Assembly: GCA_009777575.1 (NCBI GenBank)
Contig: WRLO01000007.1
Location: 1 to 64,000 of the forward strand
From: Candidatus Cloacimonadota bacterium
Lineage (GTDB): Bacteria; Cloacimonadota; Cloacimonadia; Cloacimonadales; WRIO01
DNA: 64,000 nucleotides
Direction of reading: 5' to 3'
Part shown: one piece after another, positions 1,748 through 44,755 of the stretch
How positions within the stretch are numbered: the stretch's first letter is position 1
Layout of the letters: every line of letters starts with the position of its first letter
Notes under the pieces: model-generated
Database searches by the model: none
Told to the model about the DNA's origin: nothing
The model's input: only the letters and a program-made list of their open reading frames with translations
Program-made: the position numbers and the translations under genes

Positions 1748-2437
1748 ATGTCAGACAAAGAAGAAGGAATAGTCAAAGAAAGACTAAACATGTATTTTTT
1801 GCTTGATTCTTCAGGTTCAATGGGTGGCGCTAAAATCCAGCAATTAAATGATTGTATGACAACCTTAAAACCTGTGATTCAAGCAGAAGCAAAAAATGAA
1901 GGTGTTGATGTAGTAATCAGAGCTTTGGAGTTTGGAAGTACATCTAAAGCAACCTGGCATACAGGTAATATGGACACCGGTAAACTTATCAACGATTTCA
2001 TTTGGCAAAGCCTAAAGGCTACTGGAGGTACTCCAACTGCGTCCGCAATTGAAATGGTTACAGATGCTATTGATGGAAGGTATCTAGGCGAAAGAGCCTT
2101 GCGACCTGTTGTTATACTGGTTTCAGATGGTGGATGTACTGATGGTAAACCAAAGTATACAAAGGCATGCCAAGACTTAGTCACAAAGCATGGCGATAAT
2201 GTTATACGAGTCGCTATAGGAGTCGATGGTGCTAATATAGCAGAGCTGGAAGAATTCGCTTCAAAAGATATCGAATTGAATAAACCTATGGTGTTTAAAG
2301 CTAAAGATGCTGCAGACATGGTTAAATTAATCCGATGGGTTTCACAAGCTGCGATAAAAACTGCTTCAAAGAACCCTATGGGACAAAATCAACAAACAGG
2401 TAACGCATTGCCAGGTGCGGGGAAATGGATTACCTAA
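1748..2437 (+). CDS. TerY-like von Willebrand factor A domain protein 1
   Basis: A single vWA domain of 229 aa. The MIDAS metal site is intact: Asp20-x-Ser22-x-Ser24 in LLDSSGSMGG, the threonine loop in GGTPTASAIE, and Asp127 in LVSDGGCTDG. TerY-type vWA proteins work with a PP2C phosphatase and a kinase in the TerY-P triad of tellurite/stress systems, and both partners follow here. I chose the ATG at 1748 because a perfect GGAGG lies 8 nt upstream; the upstream ATG at 1733 overlaps that site. The C-terminal tail (PMGQNQQTGNALP) is conserved in the next gene, suggesting a shared recognition tail. It probably scaffolds metal-dependent protein binding. Confidence 0.85.
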   Translation: MSDKEEGIVKERLNMYFLLDSSGSMGGAKIQQLNDCMTTLKPVIQAEAKNEGVDVVIRALEFGSTSKATWHTGNMDTGKLINDFIWQSLKATGGTPTASAIEMVTDAIDGRYLGERALRPVVILVSDGGCTDGKPKYTKACQDLVTKHGDNVIRVAIGVDGANIAELEEFASKDIELNKPMVFKAKDAADMVKLIRWVSQAAIKTASKNPMGQNQQTGNALPGAGKWIT

Positions 2438-2470
2438 AGTCATGAGGCATATCAAAATATATTACATTAA

Positions 2471-2494
2471 GGGACAGACTGAATTGTTTGTCCC
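2471..2494 (+). repeat. Short hairpin between the two vWA genes
   Basis: Inverted repeat GGGACA / TGTCCC with a 12-nt loop in the 110-bp gap between the tandem vWA genes. No T-run follows. It may attenuate or stabilise the mRNA between the paralogues. Confidence 0.4.
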
Positions 2495-2547
2495 TGATGT
2501 GATTTGTTGATCATTAAAGTTAAGATGGGGAAAAAGAAGGTAGGGAA

Positions 2548-3234
2548 ATGGCAGATAGATATGAAACAATAGTAAAAGATAGATTAAACATGTATTTCTT
2601 ATTAGATTCTTCCTGTTCTATGTATGGTGTTAAAATGCAACAATTGAATGATGCTATGCAAAATCTAAAGGTGATTGAAGCAGAAGCCAAAAATGAAGGT
2701 GTTGATGTTATTATTAGGGTAATAGAATTTGGTAATAGTGAAGAAGCATCTTGGTATGTAGGTACACCTGATCTTGGTATAAACATAAAAGAATTTAAAT
2801 GGGAAAATTTAGAAAGTGGAAATAATAGACCAACAGCATCAGCAATTGAAATGGTTACAAATGCAATTGATTGGAAGTATCTAGGTGAAAGGGTTTTAAA
2901 ACCATTTGTAATGCTGGTTTCAAACGGTGGATGTACTGAGGGTAAACCAAAATATACAAAAGCATGCCAACATTTAGTCTCAAAACATGGTGAAAAAGTG
3001 ATACGAGCGGCTATAGCCCTTGATGGTTCTAGTATAGCAGAACTGGAAGCGTTTGCTTCAAAAGATATCGAATTAAATAAACCCATGGTATATAATCCTA
3101 AAGATGCATCTGACATAATAAAATTAATCCGATGGGTTGATACTGTAGAATTAAGAGCTGGAGATGAGACTCCAATGGGAAAAAATCAACAAACAGGTAA
3201 CGCATTGCCAGATCCTGGAAGATGGATTCCATAA
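2548..3234 (+). CDS. TerY-like vWA domain protein 2, MIDAS Asp changed to Asn
   Basis: Tandem paralogue of the preceding gene (228 aa, roughly 60 percent identical by eye, with the same PMGKNQQTGNALP tail). The first MIDAS motif is kept (LLDSSCSM) and PTASAIEMV is conserved. The third MIDAS position is Asn126 in LVSNGGCTEG where the first paralogue has Asp127. This should alter or weaken metal binding, so the copy may bind its partner constitutively or act as a decoy subunit. A good ribosome binding site (AAGGTAGGGA) precedes the ATG. It lies directly upstream of the PP2C gene. Confidence 0.85.
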   Translation: MADRYETIVKDRLNMYFLLDSSCSMYGVKMQQLNDAMQNLKVIEAEAKNEGVDVIIRVIEFGNSEEASWYVGTPDLGINIKEFKWENLESGNNRPTASAIEMVTNAIDWKYLGERVLKPFVMLVSNGGCTEGKPKYTKACQHLVSKHGEKVIRAAIALDGSSIAELEAFASKDIELNKPMVYNPKDASDIIKLIRWVDTVELRAGDETPMGKNQQTGNALPDPGRWIP

Positions 3235-10045: not shown

Positions 10046-11212
10046 ATGAGGTTTAACTATTTTTGTCCATTTTGTTTTGAAACTGTACCAGTAAGTCACA
10101 TTCAATTTATATGTGATGATAAAGCATGTCCTAAAGTCCTAGATGAAGTTGCTAAAGAATATGATTTAACATTAGCTGAAGCGCCAGAGAAAAATATAGT
10201 TTTTTCACCAAAATTATTTTGTATAACTCATTTTGCGAGAAACATAGAATTCTATTTACGTTTTATATTCTTTAAGAAACAAGTAAAATGCCCAACTGCT
10301 GATTGTGGTAAAAAAACAAGAAAAATGGTTTGTCCTCATTGCCATAATCAATTACATGAAAATATTGTAAAAAATAATATAAAAATTATAATTATGGCAG
10401 GGCAAAGGGGTATTGGCAAAACTACATATAGAAATAAGCTAATTAATGAAATATTTAAAGATAAAACTTTAAGATCATATTTGCCATACACCATTAATTT
10501 TCAAACTAATATAGATAGTTCAATTAATGAGGAGGTTGTAAAAAGTCTCGAATTGAAACAAACAACTTCATCTGCATTTATCAATGGGAAACTGAATAAA
10601 AAACATATTAGACCAATATTGCTTAGCTTAAAATACATAAAGAATAAAGAGATTACTATTGCATTTTATGACGTAGCAGGAGAGGATTTAGAGAATTTTA
10701 GAAACATGAAAAGGAGTTTACCATATAGCACGAAAGCAAATGCAGTTTTTTCTATCATAAGTTGGGAAAAAGAAGAAAGAGATGAGTATGCCCCATATGA
10801 ACATATTGCAGATCCCGATGAAAAACCTATGTCTTTGTCTATCATAGAGAGTTTACATCAATTATTACCTAACAGAAATATCCCTTATGCCATAGCTGTT
10901 TCAAAAATTTATTCGGACGATAACATAGATATAACAGGAACCTCAATCGACCAAGTTTCACCGCATTTATCAACAGATAATCAACGATTTTTAGAATCAG
11001 ATGGGAACTCTGTTGATTCCGAAGTTAAACAAAAACTTAAATTTGTATTTATGCATGCAATTACTGAATTTATCTCTTATAATTATAAAAAGCCTAAATT
11101 TTTTGCATATGATGCTTTAGGTAAAAATGCAAGTGTAAATCAACAGCCACATAGATTGGAAGATGCATTTTTATGGATAATGACACAACTAGGTCTTTAC
11201 CCAAAGAGTTAG
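10046..11212 (+). CDS. Zinc-ribbon P-loop GTPase resembling DO-GTPase family
   Basis: A 388-residue protein. The N-terminal 110 residues carry cysteine pairs of one or two zinc ribbons (FCPFCFE, CDDKACPK, CPTADCGK, CPHCHNQ). The P-loop GQRGIGKTTY follows (Lys125), then a switch II DxxG motif in FYDVAGEDL (Asp209) and a late AVSKIY at the position of the guanine-specificity NKxD, which is not canonical. The layout resembles the double-GTPase (DO-GTPase) families described in GTPase-centred bacterial conflict systems. Those GTPases are encoded beside GAP1 proteins, and the next gene looks like one. It probably acts as a nucleotide-dependent switch controlled by the kinase/phosphatase pair. Family assignment is moderate and nucleotide binding is well supported. 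Confidence 0.75.
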   Translation: MRFNYFCPFCFETVPVSHIQFICDDKACPKVLDEVAKEYDLTLAEAPEKNIVFSPKLFCITHFARNIEFYLRFIFFKKQVKCPTADCGKKTRKMVCPHCHNQLHENIVKNNIKIIIMAGQRGIGKTTYRNKLINEIFKDKTLRSYLPYTINFQTNIDSSINEEVVKSLELKQTTSSAFINGKLNKKHIRPILLSLKYIKNKEITIAFYDVAGEDLENFRNMKRSLPYSTKANAVFSIISWEKEERDEYAPYEHIADPDEKPMSLSIIESLHQLLPNRNIPYAIAVSKIYSDDNIDITGTSIDQVSPHLSTDNQRFLESDGNSVDSEVKQKLKFVFMHAITEFISYNYKKPKFFAYDALGKNASVNQQPHRLEDAFLWIMTQLGLYPKS

Positions 11213-11220
11213 GAAATTTT

Positions 11221-14200
11221 ATGAAAGTTGAACAAATAATAAAAACATTTTGCAAAAAAGGCATTAACGGATCTGGCTCTTGTATTTATTCCTACTCTAA
11301 AAATATTGAAAGTCTTTTTAATATAAATATATTGGAAAGCGAACAATTGTTGAATGAATACGATTTACCATTTTACATTGAAGACATTTTTAGACCTATT
11401 TTTATAAATAACAATCAAAATGAAATAAACGAAATAATTGAGAAGAATAAGAGTAAACTTCCTATACGGATTCGTTCCAAGTATGATAGCAATAATATTT
11501 ATATTATGTCACAATGTATTTATTTAGGTGCAATTCCATTCGAATCACGATATAGTAATTACATTTCACATGGTATTGTTTTAAACAAAGAAAATTACCT
11601 CATAAATCCAGGTTTTCTAATGCTTAATAATGTTTTTTTAAATTCTATAGATGAAAAAAGTGTATGTAGTCCCAATAAACCTGAGTATTTAGATCAATTA
11701 TTCATGGAACAAGAGAAAATATCAATTGCAAGTAAAAATAAAACTTTTATGGCAGATAGAATCACATATGGTACTTACAAAAAATTACTCTACTGTCTGA
11801 TAAAAAACTTGGAAAATAAAAGGAAAATATTCATATATGATCATCATGAAAATCTACCTCTTTGGATATCATCTCTTTTATTGGCTTTCCCTATCAAAAT
11901 AGCTTTGTCAATATCGTTTAGTACCTATGAAAAAAATCCCTTCACCTCACCTTATACCATTATAGGTGTAGTAGAAAGAAAAAAATATAAAAAGGAAAAT
12001 TATGCTAGTAATGATTATCATTTTGATGTATTTGATAATGATATAAATGATTTTGACATATCAGAAATGAACGAGTTTTGTGAATTTGTAGGTGACAGTA
12101 TCATTAATTCATATAATAAACTGCAGGACTTCCATACATATCTAATAAACTTTCCAGAGTATAACATAGACACTAGAATTAATCAACCATATAGGATTTA
12201 TACTCTATCTGAAGGGACGAAAAAACTTAATGATTTAACTTATGATGATTTAAAAAATATATTAGATTTTGCTACCCAGTACGGAAACGAAAACATCATA
12301 AAAGAACTGACTATTTCTATCTTAAAATACATTCCATTTCAAACTGATGGATTAAGCTCTAACTCGGCAATTTTAAAAGAATTTTTAATTAATTCCAATG
12401 CTAATATATCAGACATTATCACTGAGTATTGTGTTGAGGTTTTTCTAACTGAAGAAAAGGATCATTTTTATCAGGTATTTGAATATTTTGATAAGAAAAC
12501 GGACTTGGTTCAAAATTTAAAATATGACTTTATAAAAAAATACATAGACCATCCCAAAAAATCTTCGATTAGTGAAATTTGGTGGAAAGTGTTGTTTATT
12601 ATAAAACCTATTACTGTAGATAAAGATTATCTTGAATATCTATTTGCGAATTTTGATGCTATATTTATTATGTTTTCGGGAATAATTGAAAAATCATATT
12701 CAATTATTGAATCTAGCGTTCAAGATATTTTTCTGAAATATTATGAAGTTAATTTAGATTTTGTGAATCTACTTTATAGTAAAATCAGATCAAAATTATC
12801 AACCATTGGGAATTGGCGAGAAAAATACAGAAGCTTTATGGCTTTGCAACAAGCTGATACAATACTGAGTTCGTTAAATTATCTTTTGCTAAATAACCTT
12901 ATTGTTGACGCAGAACACATTGCCAAACTGTTATTCATAGATGATATCTTAAAAAGTAGATTTGAATCTGAAGTTTTACAATATGACAGCAAAAATATAC
13001 AAACCTCTTGCATAACACTAATCAAATGTAAAAGAAAAGATATTGTTGATAATATTTTAGATTCATTGACATTGGCAGACAGACTAATAATATACAAATT
13101 AGTGAATGAAAATCAGAATATTGTTGCTATAGACTATTTTTCAGAATACATCTCTAATAAAGAGTTTGTAGATAATTTTTATAATGAAAACCTAACTGAC
13201 TTGTTGATTGAAAGTAATTATAATATAAAAGGCAAATTAAAAGAGAGGATTGTAGAACTTTTTTGTAGCGAATCTGATCTTGAAACACAATACCGAAACA
13301 TATTTCAAAAATATGATACTAAAAAATATGATTTAAAAAATGTAATACTCGATAGCGATGAAGTAGTAACAGCTCTTAAAAATGAAAGATGTAAAGCGGA
13401 ATTTATACTAAAGATACCCAATTTTAATAATGATTTTCTGAGAAAATTTTTAGATAAAAATTCGTTTGCTAATATAGTCGTTGATAGATATCTTGAGAAT
13501 GTATCAGATTCGTCATTAATTCATGTATTGATAAATACATATAAAAAAAATAATGTAAAAAACGAGAACTTAATAGAATTCTATCTCTTAATAAAAAACA
13601 TTTTAAATAAAAATGAACAAATAAATGTTTTTGATGAATTAAGAGCATTATTTTTCTCACCTAATGATATTATTTATATAGAAATATTATATAACAAAAA
13701 TGAAATAGATGATGTAGAATTTTTCATTAATTATTTGCGACAAAATTGCTTTAACTTTTTTGAAATTGTAAAACAAATTAATAAATTGTGCCCAAACTAT
13801 TTTAAAGATTGTGGTGCTGACTTATTATTTGATTGCATTGAATGTAACATAAAACCATATTCATCGACTGAACAATCATATGATATTTTTGAGTATGTCT
13901 ATAACAATGGAGTTGAGCTATCAAAAATATCCTCAAAGATATTTAATCAATTCATTATAACAAATATAACCAATCAAAATACAATAAGTACTATCAAAAA
14001 ATTTGATTCCTTAATAAATAAAATTAATAACGAAAGAAAACAAAAAATAGAATATCCACCAAGATTAGCCTTAGCTGTTTTAAATATTAACCTAACAGAA
14101 GCTAAATTAGAAATAGAATCCAATCCTAAAATCAAAGATATACAGCTTGAGCATTTGATTAATCATTTGATAAGTAAACCCAAAATAAACACAAAGGATA

Positions 14201-33754: not shown

Positions 33755-33888
33755 GTCGTAGATCGGAGATCTCCGCTACGGGATGGTGCCAATTTATCGA
33801 TTGAGGGCGGGGATGCTGACTTGTCGTAGATCGGAGATCTCCGCTACGGGATCGGGCTTTTGATCGATTGAGGGCGGGGGGCTGACTT
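33755..33888. repeat. 67-bp tandem repeat with CGGAGATCTCCG palindrome
   Basis: Two nearly identical units start at 33755 and 33823. Each begins GTCGTAGATCGGAGATCTCC and continues through CTACGGGAT to ATCGATTGAGGGCGGGG. A degenerate third start lies at 33889. The core is an imperfect palindrome related to the GTAGCAGAAATCTCCG repeat at 41123-41195 and inside the PKD gene. Confidence 0.8.
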
Positions 33889-33910
33889 GTCGGATGCGGG
33901 ACGGACAGGT

Positions 33911-34000
33911 GCGTCCCCTACAGAAATAGGAACGAAAAAATGCGTTCCCTACAGAAATAGGAACGAAAAAATGCGTTCCCTACAGAAATAGGTTATTTTT
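33911..34000. repeat. 31-bp tandem repeat, GCGTTCCCTACAGAAATAGG family
   Basis: Three copies at 33911, 33942 and 33973 (the last partial), each beginning GCGT(T/C)CCCTACAGAAATAGG. The arm GCGTTCCCTAC is shared with the palindrome at 20579-20606 and the atpD upstream region. Confidence 0.8.
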
Positions 34001-35867: not shown

Positions 35868-38800
35868 ATGAAAAAATACCTATACTTAATATTATTTACT
35901 TTTTATGTAACTACGATTTTTTCGCAGATTTTAGAAGTCTGCCTTAGTGGCGAAAAGCCATACACTAGCATCCAAGATGCAATAAACGCAGCTCCAAATA
36001 ACGCTATTGTAAGGGTATATGCTGGTGATTATTACGGTGAACTAACTATACCCCCCTACAAATCATTGACATTAGAAAGTCTTTATGCAACTACTGGCGA
36101 CACTTTATACATTCACAATACTCGATTATTAGCAAATTTTCCTGAAATGGTTATGTGGATAGGACCACCGACAAGTTTTTCAGGACCTTACGATGATTAT
36201 TATGTAAATATAAATGGATTTACTGTCAGCAATAATCTAGATAATGTTATGGCTTCATATTACGATGGATTTTCTGGCGGAGGGATACGAGTATATAGAA
36301 CTAATGTAAATATTGAAAATAATATTTTTCGTAATAACTTATCAACTGGCTGGGGGAGCGGTCTTACCGTCTTTTCTCCAGAAAGCAGACCACCAATTTT
36401 ATGTGTCCTAAAAAATAATAAAATATTTGACAATTACGCTTATAGTGCACCCGGCGGAGGATTAGGTTTTGAGGGTAATGTTAACATTATTTTTTCGCAA
36501 GAAGAAAGAAATAGTATATACAACAATATTGGATTAAGCGGTCAAGACATACATTTTGCTTATCCTATGTATAACTACGAAATATATTTGGATTTAGGAA
36601 GTAGAATTGTCACAGAAATCGACCATAACTATTTTAGTATCATTGGTTTATTTTATAACCCAACAATATCAGTAAATATTTTAAGAGAAAGTTTACCGCC
36701 CTTTGTAAATAACGATCTATTTGTTGCCCCATGGGGTGATGACAATAACTCTGGATTAAGCCCCGAAGCCCCTTTGAAAACGATTTATTATGCGGCGTCA
36801 ATTATTTATTCAGATGAAATAAATCCTAAAACAATACACCTTTTACCTGGGTCTTATACACGAGAGAGTGGGCAGATATTTCCTATTTTTATCCCAAGAT
36901 GGACAATTGTTAAAGGTGCTGGTATGGGTGAGACTATTTTTGAAAATCATTTTTCGTCTTATTTTGCCTATAAAAACACTGATGCAAGTGTAGAAATTAG
37001 TGATATGACTTTTAGAAATAGTGGTCATTTTTATGGAGGAGAAGCAATAAGCGGGCTTTCTTTTTACCATAATATTTACAACATAGAAATCCTTAATAAT
37101 GAATATCGTCATGTTTTACATTTTGCTTTTGATGGACTTCCATATAACTCATATAATGAAGATACATTACATATAAAAAATGTAATAATTCAAAATAATA
37201 TAGATTCTGGTATCCATATAAGAACAATAAAAAATGTAAACATTGAGAATTTAATTATTAATAACAATTATATACCTTTAGAACCTCCATTTCTACTTCT
37301 TGGAGATATACCAAACTTAAATATTAATAATATTGCTATCACCAACAACAGAGCTACTAGACAGTCACAGATATTAAAGGTGGATGACATTTATAGTCTT
37401 TTACCAATTCAATATGGAACTGCTATCCTAAACAATGTTTTGATAACAAATAATAATACAACGAATCTTCTAAGAAATTTCGGTTTAATTAATATGGGAA
37501 GATATTATAGAGATACGATACTAAATAATTGGACGGTAGTAAATAATGCTAGTCTACATGATAAAAGAACATTCGTAACACATAATGATATAACTATGAA
37601 CAACATGCTAATTTATAACCCCACTATGGATTACGATGTTGTTCAAGGAGAATTAATTACAGGTCAGTTAACAATAAACAACTCATTGCTTTTTGCAGCT
37701 ATTAATAGCTGGCAGAATCCAGACCCTATACTTAACGATGTTATCTGGGAAGCCCCTCAATTAGCTGGGCATCATAATAGTAATCTAACTCCAGATATGT
37801 GGGAATACTATTATTTACACGAAAGTTCTCCTGTTATCGATTTTGGGATAGATGTGTCAGATATGATGCTTTTAGATATCGATTTAGCAGGAAATCCTAG
37901 AATATTTGGTAATGCCATAGATTTAGGCGCTTTTGAGTTTCAAGGTCTCATGGCAAGATTTACAGCAGAGCCAAGAACAGGGACTGCTCCTTTAGAAGTT
38001 CAATTTACAGATTTGTCATCAGGTGGTAGTGTTTTTGCTTGGGCGTGGGATTTGGACTCTGATGGAAATGTTGATAGTTCAGAACAGCACCCTGTATTTA
38101 TTTACGAAGAAAATGGAAATTATGCAGTTACACTAACTATCAATAACGGAGAAGCGAGTATTACTATGCCAAATTTTATCATTGTTGGCGATATTGTAAA
38201 TGCTGATTTCACTGCAGAACCTTTGATAGGAATTGCACCTCTCGAGGTTCAGTTTACAGACTTGTCAATAGGTGCTGTTTCTTGGGCTTGGGATTTTGGA
38301 ATTACAACAACATCATCTTTTCTGTCGCGATCAAGCCTCGTATCCGTAGCAGAAATCTCCGATTTCCCCGTCACATCAACAACTTCTACAGAACAAAATC
38401 CTATCTTTGTTTATAATGAAGGTGGTATATATTCTGTAACCTTGACTGTCAACGATGGAGAAAGCTTTATCGTAAAAAATGATTTTATTGTAGTCATGCC
38501 TCCTATAACTGCTGATTTTACAGCAGAACCGTTGATAGGGGTTGCACCTCTCGAGGTTCAGTTTGCAGACTTGTCTATAGGTGCTGTTTCTTGGGTTTGG
38601 GATTTTGGAATTATATCAACATCATCTTTTCTATCGCGATCAAGCCTCATATCCGTAGCAGAAATCTCCGATTTCCCCGTCACATCAACTACTTCTACAG
38701 AGCAAAACCCAGTTTTTATTTTTGAGGAGGAAGGTGAATATACAATAACTTTGACTATCAACGATGGTGAAAGTAGTATTACAAAACCTGACTTTATCTT

Positions 38801-39743
38801 AGTAGTTCCACCTGTTTATGCGGATTTTAGTGCTGAGCCTTTATCTGGTCATGCACCTCTTGAAGTTCAGTTTACAGATAGGTCTTTTGGAGCATTTTCT
38901 TGGGCTTGGGATTTTGGAATTATATCAACATCATCTTCTTTATCGCGATCAAGCCTCATATCCGTAGCAGAAATCTCCGATTTCCCCGTTACATCAACAA
39001 CTTCTACAGAGCAAAATCCTATTTTCATTTTTGAAGAAGTGGGTGTTTATACCGTGACATTAACAATCAACAACGGAGAAAGCACTAATACTAAATCAGA
39101 TTTTATTGTTGTAACACAACCAGCAAAAGCAGATTTTACTGCGGAACCATCGATGGGAGTGGCTCCTTTGGAAGTTCAATTTACATGCCTATCCACTGGT
39201 GTTTTTGCCTGGGAATGGGATTTCAATAATGATGGAACTGTTGATTCTACAGAGCAAAATCCAGTTTTTACTTATCTCACTTCGGGTATTTACACGGTAA
39301 CTTTAACCATAAATAACGGTGAGGATACCATCACAAAACAAGATTTTATTGATTCTACTGTCAGCGATGACGATGAAACTGTTTTGCCTTTTACGGGTGT
39401 GAATCTTCAAAGTTTCCCCAATCCTGTAAATATCAGTAGAAGTTCAAACACTTTAATATCCTTTAATACACAAACTAAAGCGGCTTCAGAACCAGTAATT
39501 GAAATATATAATATCAGAGGACAAAAAATCCGAACCCTCAGAACAGGCATGAGTTTTTATGACCTCGCCGTGTTAGCAGGTTTAGCCCAAGAAAATCTTG
39601 ATTTGATAAACTCTCGAAATTATAGTGTGATTTGGGATATGAGAGATGATAACAAGGGATTAGTAGGCTCTGGCATTTATTTCTATCGAGCCATAGTAGA
39701 CGGAGAAATAGTGGGAACCAATCGGATGGTGGTGATAAAATAA
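35868..39743 (+). CDS. Secreted beta-helix / PKD protein with FlgD-like C-terminal sorting tail
   Basis: A 1,291-residue secreted protein. Signal peptide at 1-20 (MKKYLYLILFTFYVTTIFSQ). Residues about 25-690 are right-handed beta-helix repeats typical of pectate-lyase-like surface proteins. Five PKD domains follow from about 700, each with (T/S)AEPxxGxAPLEVQF and ending VTLTINNGE or similar. The C-terminal 90 residues (FPNPVN, IYNIRGQKIRTL, GSGIYFYRAIVDG) match the FlgD-like/type IX secretion-style tail of the FCB group. PKD domains 2-4 carry a 21-residue insertion, described separately. Probably a surface or secreted binding protein. Confidence 0.85.
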   Translation: MKKYLYLILFTFYVTTIFSQILEVCLSGEKPYTSIQDAINAAPNNAIVRVYAGDYYGELTIPPYKSLTLESLYATTGDTLYIHNTRLLANFPEMVMWIGPPTSFSGPYDDYYVNINGFTVSNNLDNVMASYYDGFSGGGIRVYRTNVNIENNIFRNNLSTGWGSGLTVFSPESRPPILCVLKNNKIFDNYAYSAPGGGLGFEGNVNIIFSQEERNSIYNNIGLSGQDIHFAYPMYNYEIYLDLGSRIVTEIDHNYFSIIGLFYNPTISVNILRESLPPFVNNDLFVAPWGDDNNSGLSPEAPLKTIYYAASIIYSDEINPKTIHLLPGSYTRESGQIFPIFIPRWTIVKGAGMGETIFENHFSSYFAYKNTDASVEISDMTFRNSGHFYGGEAISGLSFYHNIYNIEILNNEYRHVLHFAFDGLPYNSYNEDTLHIKNVIIQNNIDSGIHIRTIKNVNIENLIINNNYIPLEPPFLLLGDIPNLNINNIAITNNRATRQSQILKVDDIYSLLPIQYGTAILNNVLITNNNTTNLLRNFGLINMGRYYRDTILNNWTVVNNASLHDKRTFVTHNDITMNNMLIYNPTMDYDVVQGELITGQLTINNSLLFAAINSWQNPDPILNDVIWEAPQLAGHHNSNLTPDMWEYYYLHESSPVIDFGIDVSDMMLLDIDLAGNPRIFGNAIDLGAFEFQGLMARFTAEPRTGTAPLEVQFTDLSSGGSVFAWAWDLDSDGNVDSSEQHPVFIYEENGNYAVTLTINNGEASITMPNFIIVGDIVNADFTAEPLIGIAPLEVQFTDLSIGAVSWAWDFGITTTSSFLSRSSLVSVAEISDFPVTSTTSTEQNPIFVYNEGGIYSVTLTVNDGESFIVKNDFIVVMPPITADFTAEPLIGVAPLEVQFADLSIGAVSWVWDFGIISTSSFLSRSSLISVAEISDFPVTSTTSTEQNPVFIFEEEGEYTITLTINDGESSITKPDFILVVPPVYADFSAEPLSGHAPLEVQFTDRSFGAFSWAWDFGIISTSSSLSRSSLISVAEISDFPVTSTTSTEQNPIFIFEEVGVYTVTLTINNGESTNTKSDFIVVTQPAKADFTAEPSMGVAPLEVQFTCLSTGVFAWEWDFNNDGTVDSTEQNPVFTYLTSGIYTVTLTINNGEDTITKQDFIDSTVSDDDETVLPFTGVNLQSFPNPVNISRSSNTLISFNTQTKAASEPVIEIYNIRGQKIRTLRTGMSFYDLAVLAGLAQENLDLINSRNYSVIWDMRDDNKGLVGSGIYFYRAIVDGEIVGTNRMVVIK
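38345..38371 (+). repeat. Dispersed palindromic repeat inside PKD domain 2
   Basis: Core CGTAGCAGAAATCTCCGATT..., the reverse complement of the intergenic element at 41123-41195. It encodes VAEISDFP in frame and replaces the short NDGTVD loop seen in PKD domains 1 and 5. Confidence 0.85.
38654..38680 (+). repeat. Dispersed palindromic repeat inside PKD domain 3
   Basis: Second in-frame copy of the same core, nearly identical at the DNA level to the copies in domains 2 and 4. Confidence 0.85.
38963..38989 (+). repeat. Dispersed palindromic repeat inside PKD domain 4
   Basis: Third in-frame copy of the same core; the surrounding domain sequence is more diverged than the repeat itself. Confidence 0.85.
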
Positions 39744-41118: not shown

Positions 41119-42678
<1,560 letters not shown>

Positions 42679-43159: not shown

Positions 43160-43489
43160 TATATAGGATGTAGTTTTTTTCACCGATCTTCCTCTATCTT
43201 GGGGTGAACCATAGAAGGGATAATTTGTTTTCCCCAGTTTATGTCTTCAAATATTTAACACAGAGTCTCCGATACCCAAGGTTCGAACCATCTTAGAGGT
43301 GACTCATAAGTGTCAACTTTTATTCGTAGAGGCAATCTCTGATTATCATAAACCATTGTAAATTGTCAATCGGAGATTGAAGCTACAGACAAAAATAGTG
43401 AAAAGTTGACACTTATGCTTTCCCATCATACCCTATAATGTGGGAAGTCAGGGAGGAGCTATAGATTTGATAATAAGACTCTAATGTTA
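43160..43489. other. 330-bp intergenic region after atpC
   Basis: No gene. It contains a GGTTCGAACC palindrome (43280-43289), the 113-bp inverted-repeat element (43305-43417) and the 3' end of a minus-strand gene at its right edge. The atpC terminator is not obvious. Confidence 0.6.
43305..43417. repeat. 113-bp inverted-repeat element (MITE-like) after atpC
   Basis: Perfect 17-bp terminal inverted repeats: CATAAGTGTCAACTTTT at 43305-43321 and its complement at 43401-43417. Inside are two diverged arms of the CGGAGATT...GCTAC palindrome family (43325-43343 and 43367-43385), so the whole unit can fold into one long hairpin. Confidence 0.85.
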
Positions 43490-44292: not shown

Positions 44293-44755
44293 AGATTGAG
44301 AGGCTGAAATGTCTGCCTGTTTTTTGTTATGTTTGTAATCAGCAATCATACAAGAAATAGGAGGAAAGTCCGAACACCTTAGAGCAGGATACTTCTGAAA
44401 AGGAAGCTTTGGTGACAAAGAGCTAGCTCCACAGAAACAGACCGCCTTATGTTTCGATGTGAGGTAAGGGTGAAAAGGTAGTGTAAGAGACAACCAGTCA
44501 GAGTAGTGATATTCTGAGCTAGGAAAGCCTTATCCGGTGCAATGCCAAATAGGAAAGTCAATATGCAATGCATATCCTGATTTGCTCGGTCGGGAGATCT
44601 TTCGGGTAGGCAGCTATATCCGTTTCTGAAGTGTAGTTCAGAGAGCAACACTTTATAGAAGCTCCATTGAGCATAGCAATATACGGAATAGATGAATAGA
44701 CATTTTTTTGCTTTTTAGGCAAAAAACAGAATTCGGCTTATCAGCTTCTCAATCT
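44293..44755 (+). ncRNA. rnpB: RNase P RNA (bacterial type A)
   Basis: Catalytic RNA that matures tRNA 5' ends. Conserved elements are all present in order: GAGGAAAGTCCGAACACC (CR-I), CACAGAAACAGACCGCC (CR-II), GGTAAGGGTGAAAAGG (CR-III), then AGATGAATAGACAT and AACAGAATTCGGCTTAT (CR-V). The terminal P1 helix pairs AGATTGAGAGGCTGA at 44293 with TCAGCTTCTCAATCT ending at 44755, which sets the ends. Length about 463 nt is somewhat long because of the P3 and P12-type arms. Confidence 0.95.

Follow-up and report, generated by a model that had tools for sequence, protein, structure and literature searches.

A genome-specific GTAG REP family read in frame in PKD domains and other proteins of a Candidatus Cloacimonadota bacterium, and its likely cognate RAYT

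How did a dispersed palindromic repeat come to be translated inside three domains of one secreted protein? This question was raised by the first-pass annotation of a 64,000-nucleotide stretch from Candidatus Cloacimonadota bacterium (contig WRLO01000007.1 of assembly GCA_009777575.1, positions 1 to 64,000; hereafter the window), in which the repeat lies in PKD domains 2, 3 and 4 of an open reading frame (ORF) at 35868-39743. Our analysis strongly favors the following answer: the repeat belongs to a family of GTAG-tagged repetitive extragenic palindromic (REP) elements specific to this genome, a REP-associated tyrosine transposase (RAYT) on contig C9 is its likely cognate enzyme, the copies within genes would be in-frame survivors, and a single insertion into a PKD domain was then probably copied. 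G000 denotes the genome under study, C its contigs, L the stretches fetched for analysis, and G001 a relative of the same family. The ORF and its repeats were as follows.

35868..39743, + strand: ORF of a secreted protein, 1291 aa, with five PKD domains between a DUF1565-like N-terminal region and a C-terminal tail
37953..38186, + strand: PKD domain 1, short loop (LDSDGNVDSSEQHP), without the repeat
38202..38495, + strand: PKD domain 2, loop expanded by 22 residues
38346..38366, + strand: REP of GTAG type in PKD2, translated VAEISDF
38511..38807, + strand: PKD domain 3, loop expanded by 22 residues
38655..38675, + strand: REP of GTAG type in PKD3, translated VAEISDF
38820..39113, + strand: PKD domain 4, loop expanded by 22 residues
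38964..38984, + strand: REP of GTAG type in PKD4, translated VAEISDF
39129..39350, + strand: PKD domain 5, short loop (NNDGTVDSTEQNP), without the repeat

Pfam PKD (PF00801) matched the protein in five stretches (E=1.6e-33), and DUF1565 matched with E=8.5e-6. When the five domains were aligned as proteins, a 22-residue insertion was found at the WDFG/NDG loop of PKD2-4, whereas PKD1 and PKD5 had the NDG-type loop. The residues aligned to either side of this stretch are adjacent in the solved PKD structure 1l0q, and it was therefore an insertion into a loop. The first-pass annotation had described about 21 extra residues containing VAEISDFPVTS; the insertion is real, but only 7 of its 22 residues (VAEISDF, 7 codons, 21 nt) came from the repeat, and the other ~15 (GITTTSSFLSRSSLVS...PVTSTT) were Ser/Thr-rich. 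The inserts were indeed more alike than the domains around them, with 92-96% DNA identity in the PKD2-4 loops versus 71-79% elsewhere in these domains (Fisher P 4e-4 to 5e-7). AlphaFold modeled PKD2 together with the five window domains at a pLDDT of 42, which is low, and no structural claim rests on this model.

The core of the repeat, CGTAGCAGAAATCTCCG, was exact at 38345, 38654 and 38963 on the + strand and at 41123 and 41177 on the - strand. The latter two sit upstream of atpD, inverted relative to the PKD copies, which bears out the claim that the PKD core is the reverse complement of the repeat near atpD. With variants carrying two mismatches at 33764 and 33832, the window held 7 matches compared to 0.02 expected from shuffles. 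The intergenic features upstream of atpD were as follows.

41172..41192, - strand: intergenic REP copy, exact, between a fabD-like ORF and atpD
41123..41139, - strand: intergenic REP core with a degenerate 3' arm, between the fabD-like ORF and atpD
41144..41167, - strand: hairpin of a second GTAG family (GTAGGGAACGCATGTATGCGTTCC), flanked by the two REP copies upstream of atpD

The full unit, GTAGCAGAAATCTCCGATTTC, is 21 nt long and consists of a GTAG foot, two spacer bases (CA), and a 6-bp stem (GAAATC/GATTTC) closed by a TCC loop. Across 198 copies in the fetched stretches, each position was 96-100% conserved and conservation dropped at both ends; the G, T, A and G of the foot stood at 97, 99, 100 and 96%, values that are partly a product of the consensus-based search, although the drop at both flanks is not. 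CC preceded the unit in about 90% of these copies. As DNA, the REP strand folds into a hairpin with the 6-bp stem and TCC loop (z -4.2). In stem variants such as GTAGCACCAATCTCCGATTGGT and GTAGCGGCGATCTCCGATCGCC, both arms changed together and pairing was kept: 90.5% of cells were paired, with 7 double changes, versus at most 50% in slid controls, in a set of only seven variants picked for the common ATCTCCGAT center. Genome-wide, 288 copies were found at ≤2 mismatches, including the exact ones in PKD2-4, and none with the reversed control. CGTAGCAGAAATCTCCGATTTC occurred in 186 exact copies, 128 followed by C and 58 by another base.

The family was specific to this genome. The insert peptide might have been a native part of PKD domains in unrelated genera; instead, none of 58 relatives rose above background (0-3 matches each, all with 2 mismatches), the exact 21-mer was absent from the other genomes of the scanned GTDB collection, and matching intergenic copies abound here. 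In a scan of 237 kb of the genome for any 4-nt tag, in stretches selected because REPs were present, GTAG preceded 26 distinct hairpins, and all other tags of the leading group were A/T-rich. Unrelated GTAG hairpin families were present too, including GTAGGGAACGCATGTATGCGTTCC and GTAG-N-GGCGTATTGCTTACGCC. The REPs formed head-to-tail arrays, the longest of about 25 units, whose periods were mainly 27-30 nt, and single dispersed copies occurred in unrelated contexts. Contigs C38 and C48 both start with REPs at identical offsets (34-155 in each), and the arrays therefore probably break the assembly. A four-unit array with a 58-nt period, alternating with a GGAACGCATGCATG family, was also seen at L077:1372-1562 (contig C8), directly upstream of cas2 and apparently beyond cas1, and does not represent a CRISPR.

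The assembly contained five Y1_Tnp matches. Four of them are short, with the appearance of subclass 1.2 or IS200-type enzymes, and most adjoin their own palindromes. Three such short transposases (L089, L090 and L091, on C191, C26 and C32) each lay amid distinct palindromic repeats, for example CTACCCTGAAAGGGTAG and CCGACAGCTAAAGCAATCGG. The fifth, at C9:10570-11151, is a RAYT (TnpA-REP) of the subclass 2.4 type. Its only PDB match was the TnpA-REP 4ER8 (E=5.6e-7), and W-Q, D-H and R stood at the positions that contact GTAG, as taken from PMC6006769. The subclass motifs NH[IFV]H, WQ and YIxNNP were found as MPNHIHLI, IWQKSYYDH and YIQNNP. REP arrays flank the gene on both sides (C9:10131-10571 and 11199-11425), and the gene ends within the first downstream unit, whose GTAG contains the stop codon (GAT GAA TAT TAT CCG TAG). 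Within the gene, REPs are read in frame as SMERKSEISFDGKSEISFDGKSEISATVTMKEGG and FLKSEISAK. The FLKSEISAK copy sits after HUH, and a REP segment of ~39 residues lies further upstream, before the HUH strand (residues ~45-83). Several RAYT homologues align over residues 1-44 and again from 82/84 onward, leaving a 3-nt gap, and the ~39-residue segment is therefore an insertion. Judged from its sequence and surroundings, the C9 RAYT is most likely the cognate enzyme of the REP.

Relatives of the same order showed the same association. A GTAG hairpin with a stem of at least 7 was found in the post-HUH loop of 28 of 42 distinct RAYT-like ORFs, versus a mean of 0.4 and a maximum of 4 after codon shuffling. 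In the C-terminal 60 codons of these ORFs such hairpins occurred in 7 of 42, and other ORFs had them in 7 of 311 windows of 210 nt. This pattern fits what is described for subclass 2.4 (PMC6006769). Post-HUH readings seen in these RAYTs (L094-L112, L155-L194) include VETQNLASL, VGNGLKPF, GNRHACS and ESGTLSAT. G001 has its own, different GTAG REP, GTAGCGGAGAGCGTCCCGCTCTCC (L101), with 71 copies at ≤3 mismatches there and none in G000, G002 or G003, and this REP is read in frame twice inside the G001 RAYT. Since a member of the same family has another REP, again within its own RAYT, REP turnover appears to be rapid.

Where else were REPs read as protein? Coding and intergenic copies were counted in the fetched stretches, which hold about 198 of the 288 copies in some 36 clusters. 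About 7 clusters lay inside genes, including the window protein and the RAYT, and most copies were intergenic. ORFs with REPs only near the N-terminus were excluded from the in-gene count, as their true start codon may lie beyond the repeats; these are the ORF extension upstream of atpD, L077 cas2, L082, L133 and L134. The largest in-gene array was found in the ribose-5-phosphate isomerase RpiB on C34 (L087:1256-2170, - strand), where 11 units of 27 nt (99 residues) separate the first conserved block (SDHAGYELK...FL) from the one that follows; residues 11-34 and 35-154 of PDB 1o1x align to query residues 13-36 and 155-279. The array was missing in 17 relatives with an rpiB match covering the whole family model, eight of which were aligned. 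rpiB is single-copy in the assembly, and RpiA was not found at 91% completeness, a level at which an rpiA may have been missed. A DEAD_2 helicase on C30 (L085, - strand) has 53 residues where G001 has 18 nt and lacks the insertion. Further along, the same helicase gene carries two tandem in-frame units of the second GTAG family. Units were also in frame in a secreted protein with a Por_Secre_tail on C19 (two units), in a PKD paralogue on C15, and in a DDE transposase ORF on C17 (one unit), which is possibly a pseudogene. The REP-bearing proteins are presumably functional.

The frames used were VAEISDF, KSEISAT (RpiB, RAYT and helicase) and, once, RSRNLRF (a transposase). The TAG of GTAG closes one of the six REP frames, and none of the verified genes was seen to use the GNRRFLLR or EIGDFCY frame. 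Spacing of in-gene units by multiples of three (RpiB, helicase and L081) is suggestive in these three genes only, and about half of all head-to-tail REP spacings are already multiples of three. L081 has a tail of the type IX secretion system (T9SS) type, and for this reason the lineage looks like an FCB-type phylum, as the first-pass annotation also had it.

We then asked whether the PKD copies arose separately. The three inserts share one site and matching flanks, and a fourth repeat-bearing PKD loop occurs in the C15 paralogue, whose domain is identical to window PKD3 at 289 of 309 positions. Because of this, the simplest reading is that the inserts probably stem from one insertion followed by domain duplication or conversion, and three independent insertions are unlikely. 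Related expanded PKD loops without the repeat were found in paralogues on C92 (GVASTSSSQTRTSGISIVRNTNSTEQNP) and C99. The PKD loops of further paralogues (L069-L072, on C51, C117, C192 and C67) hold other repeat-like inserts, for example MENGEWRMENGEWKMENG (a GGAGAATGG-type minisatellite) and SEIVSxRLLxxENSSGKPRNDDGGSL.

We propose that the C9 RAYT would cut single-stranded DNA at the foot and hairpin of the REP, then join copies at new sites; nicking and rejoining of folded single-stranded REP by TnpA-REP is described in a biochemical study (PMC8266576). Copies would then grow into head-to-tail arrays, perhaps via slippage or unequal recombination. A copy within a gene would survive if it adds a net length divisible by three, if the frame avoids the TAG in GTAG, and if the loop is tolerant. 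In the PKD protein, one REP would have entered an already enlarged loop, and later copying of the whole domain would account for the three read-through copies in this protein and the fourth in a paralogue.

Several points weigh against this explanation. The only NCBIfam match of the C9 RAYT, REP_Tyr_transpos (NF047646, E=3.5e-17), reached 62.7 bits against a cut-off of 80, and PF01797 gave 20.8 against 23; the G001 RAYT, which has REP inserts too, was likewise below the cut-off at 61.3. The C9 RAYT also has insertions itself and could be inactive. Its mobilization of the REP is inferred from TnpA-REP biochemistry rather than directly observed. Among neighboring pairs within 130 bp, 162 of 169 were head-to-tail and 7 inverted, whereas published families mostly favor inverted dimers. 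Inverted dimers (head-to-head or tail-to-tail) are common but not universal, and because the same source also describes clusters and head-to-tail arrangements (PMC3733652), we regard this bias as a difference and not as an exclusion. Finally, no clean empty site turned up for the PKD insertion: the C92 loop is 21 nt shorter, is too diverged for boundaries to be set, and possibly contains a degenerate REP of its own.

Could the arrays instead be a tandem minisatellite that owes its spread to recombination and slippage alone, without any transposase, and that has the RAYT nearby by chance? The mainly head-to-tail units, their 27-30 nt periods and the other minisatellites in PKD loops of this genome fit such a reading. 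It leaves the single dispersed copies in unrelated contexts unaccounted for, as well as the GTAG foot and hairpin common to several unrelated hairpin families of the genome and the different REP of a relative with a different RAYT, and we consider it improbable. It is less likely still, and by a clear step, that the 22 extra residues represent a native variant of the PKD loop under functional selection, whose DNA likeness to intergenic repeats is secondary. The loop DNA is better conserved than the remaining domain, and some paralogues have longer S/T-rich loops that lack the repeat. But recent duplication or conversion would equally yield high loop identity, some 160 other copies in the fetched stretches match the 21-nt repeat exactly, and unrelated proteins use other frames of it, with KSEISAT in RpiB, the RAYT and the helicase and RSRNLRF in a transposase.

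The first-pass annotation had likened the repeat to Rickettsia palindromic elements (RPEs), and this holds for its behavior, a palindromic, dispersed repeat that is intergenic and also translated in frame within proteins, but not for its family. The foot is GTAG and not CGTC, a RAYT lies between REP arrays, and RAYT homologues carry in-frame GTAG hairpins, whereas RPE-4 and RPE-6 are assigned to the CGTC superfamily, whose members lack an associated transposase (PMC3733652). A CGTC-type coding repeat independent of a RAYT is thus the least credible of these alternatives. The genome-specific GTAG family with its likely cognate RAYT remains our preferred explanation.

This REP belongs to the published GTAG REP superfamily (PMC3733652), most families of which have an unpaired 5' GTAG conserved above 90%. 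It shares with them the GTAG foot, a short stem and loop, high copy number, species specificity and a RAYT nearby, and in both cases several families occur per genome, the TAG of REPs ends ORFs, and in-frame copies lie in genes, several of which encode repair helicases or nucleases. It differs in its mostly head-to-tail order, the 11 units in one enzyme, the PKD loops, and a lineage apparently outside the listed phyla (Proteobacteria, Cyanobacteria, Chloroflexi, PVC). The subclass 2.4 or RAYT group 4 REPtrons (PMC6006769) have the same three motifs, REPs flanking the transposase gene, and REPs in frame between HuH and Y; here there is an additional, larger REP segment before the HUH strand, and two bases separate GTAG and stem. 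In-frame GTAG REPs within genes were already published (Di Nocera et al. 2013, PMC3733652), as were REPs in frame inside subclass 2.4 tnpA-REP genes (BMC Genomics 2018, 19:475). A REP within a RAYT was considered as a novelty and dropped, since the subclass 2.4 description has it. Our case is an example of a known, rarely illustrated phenomenon and not a new element type, with unusually long head-to-tail arrays.

The window contained further GTAG-type hairpins.

33757..33983, - strand: cluster of related GTAG hairpins, two of GTAGCGGAGATCTCCGATCTACG and three of GTAGGGRACGCA... type
20579..20606, found on both strands: 'double foot' GTAG hairpin of the GGAACGCATGCATGCGTTCC family
43366..43386, - strand: stem variant GTAGCTTCAATCTCCGATTGA of the TCC-loop REP scaffold

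Elsewhere in the window, a segment of ~300 nt is repeated 797 nt apart with 81% identity at 2033-3129, with similar stretches on both sides (a tandem duplication), and the sole Rfam match was a class A bacterial RNase P RNA at 44297-44755 (RF00010, 236 bits).

Together, these results provide a clear case, outside Rickettsia, of non-coding mobile hairpins turned into protein sequence, with a likely transposase and insertion-free homologues at hand. In RpiB, 99 residues of REP array sit in an enzyme seemingly without back-up, which bears on the repeat load of a core enzyme. A speculative extension, to which we give only a modest chance, is that REPs keep supplying protein sequence, and that in-frame arrays growing by 27 nt (9 codons) are tolerated, and perhaps kept, in the core of RpiB, the only ribose-5-phosphate isomerase found, and of other working enzymes. 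If so, this REP family would be reshaping the housekeeping proteins of a lineage.

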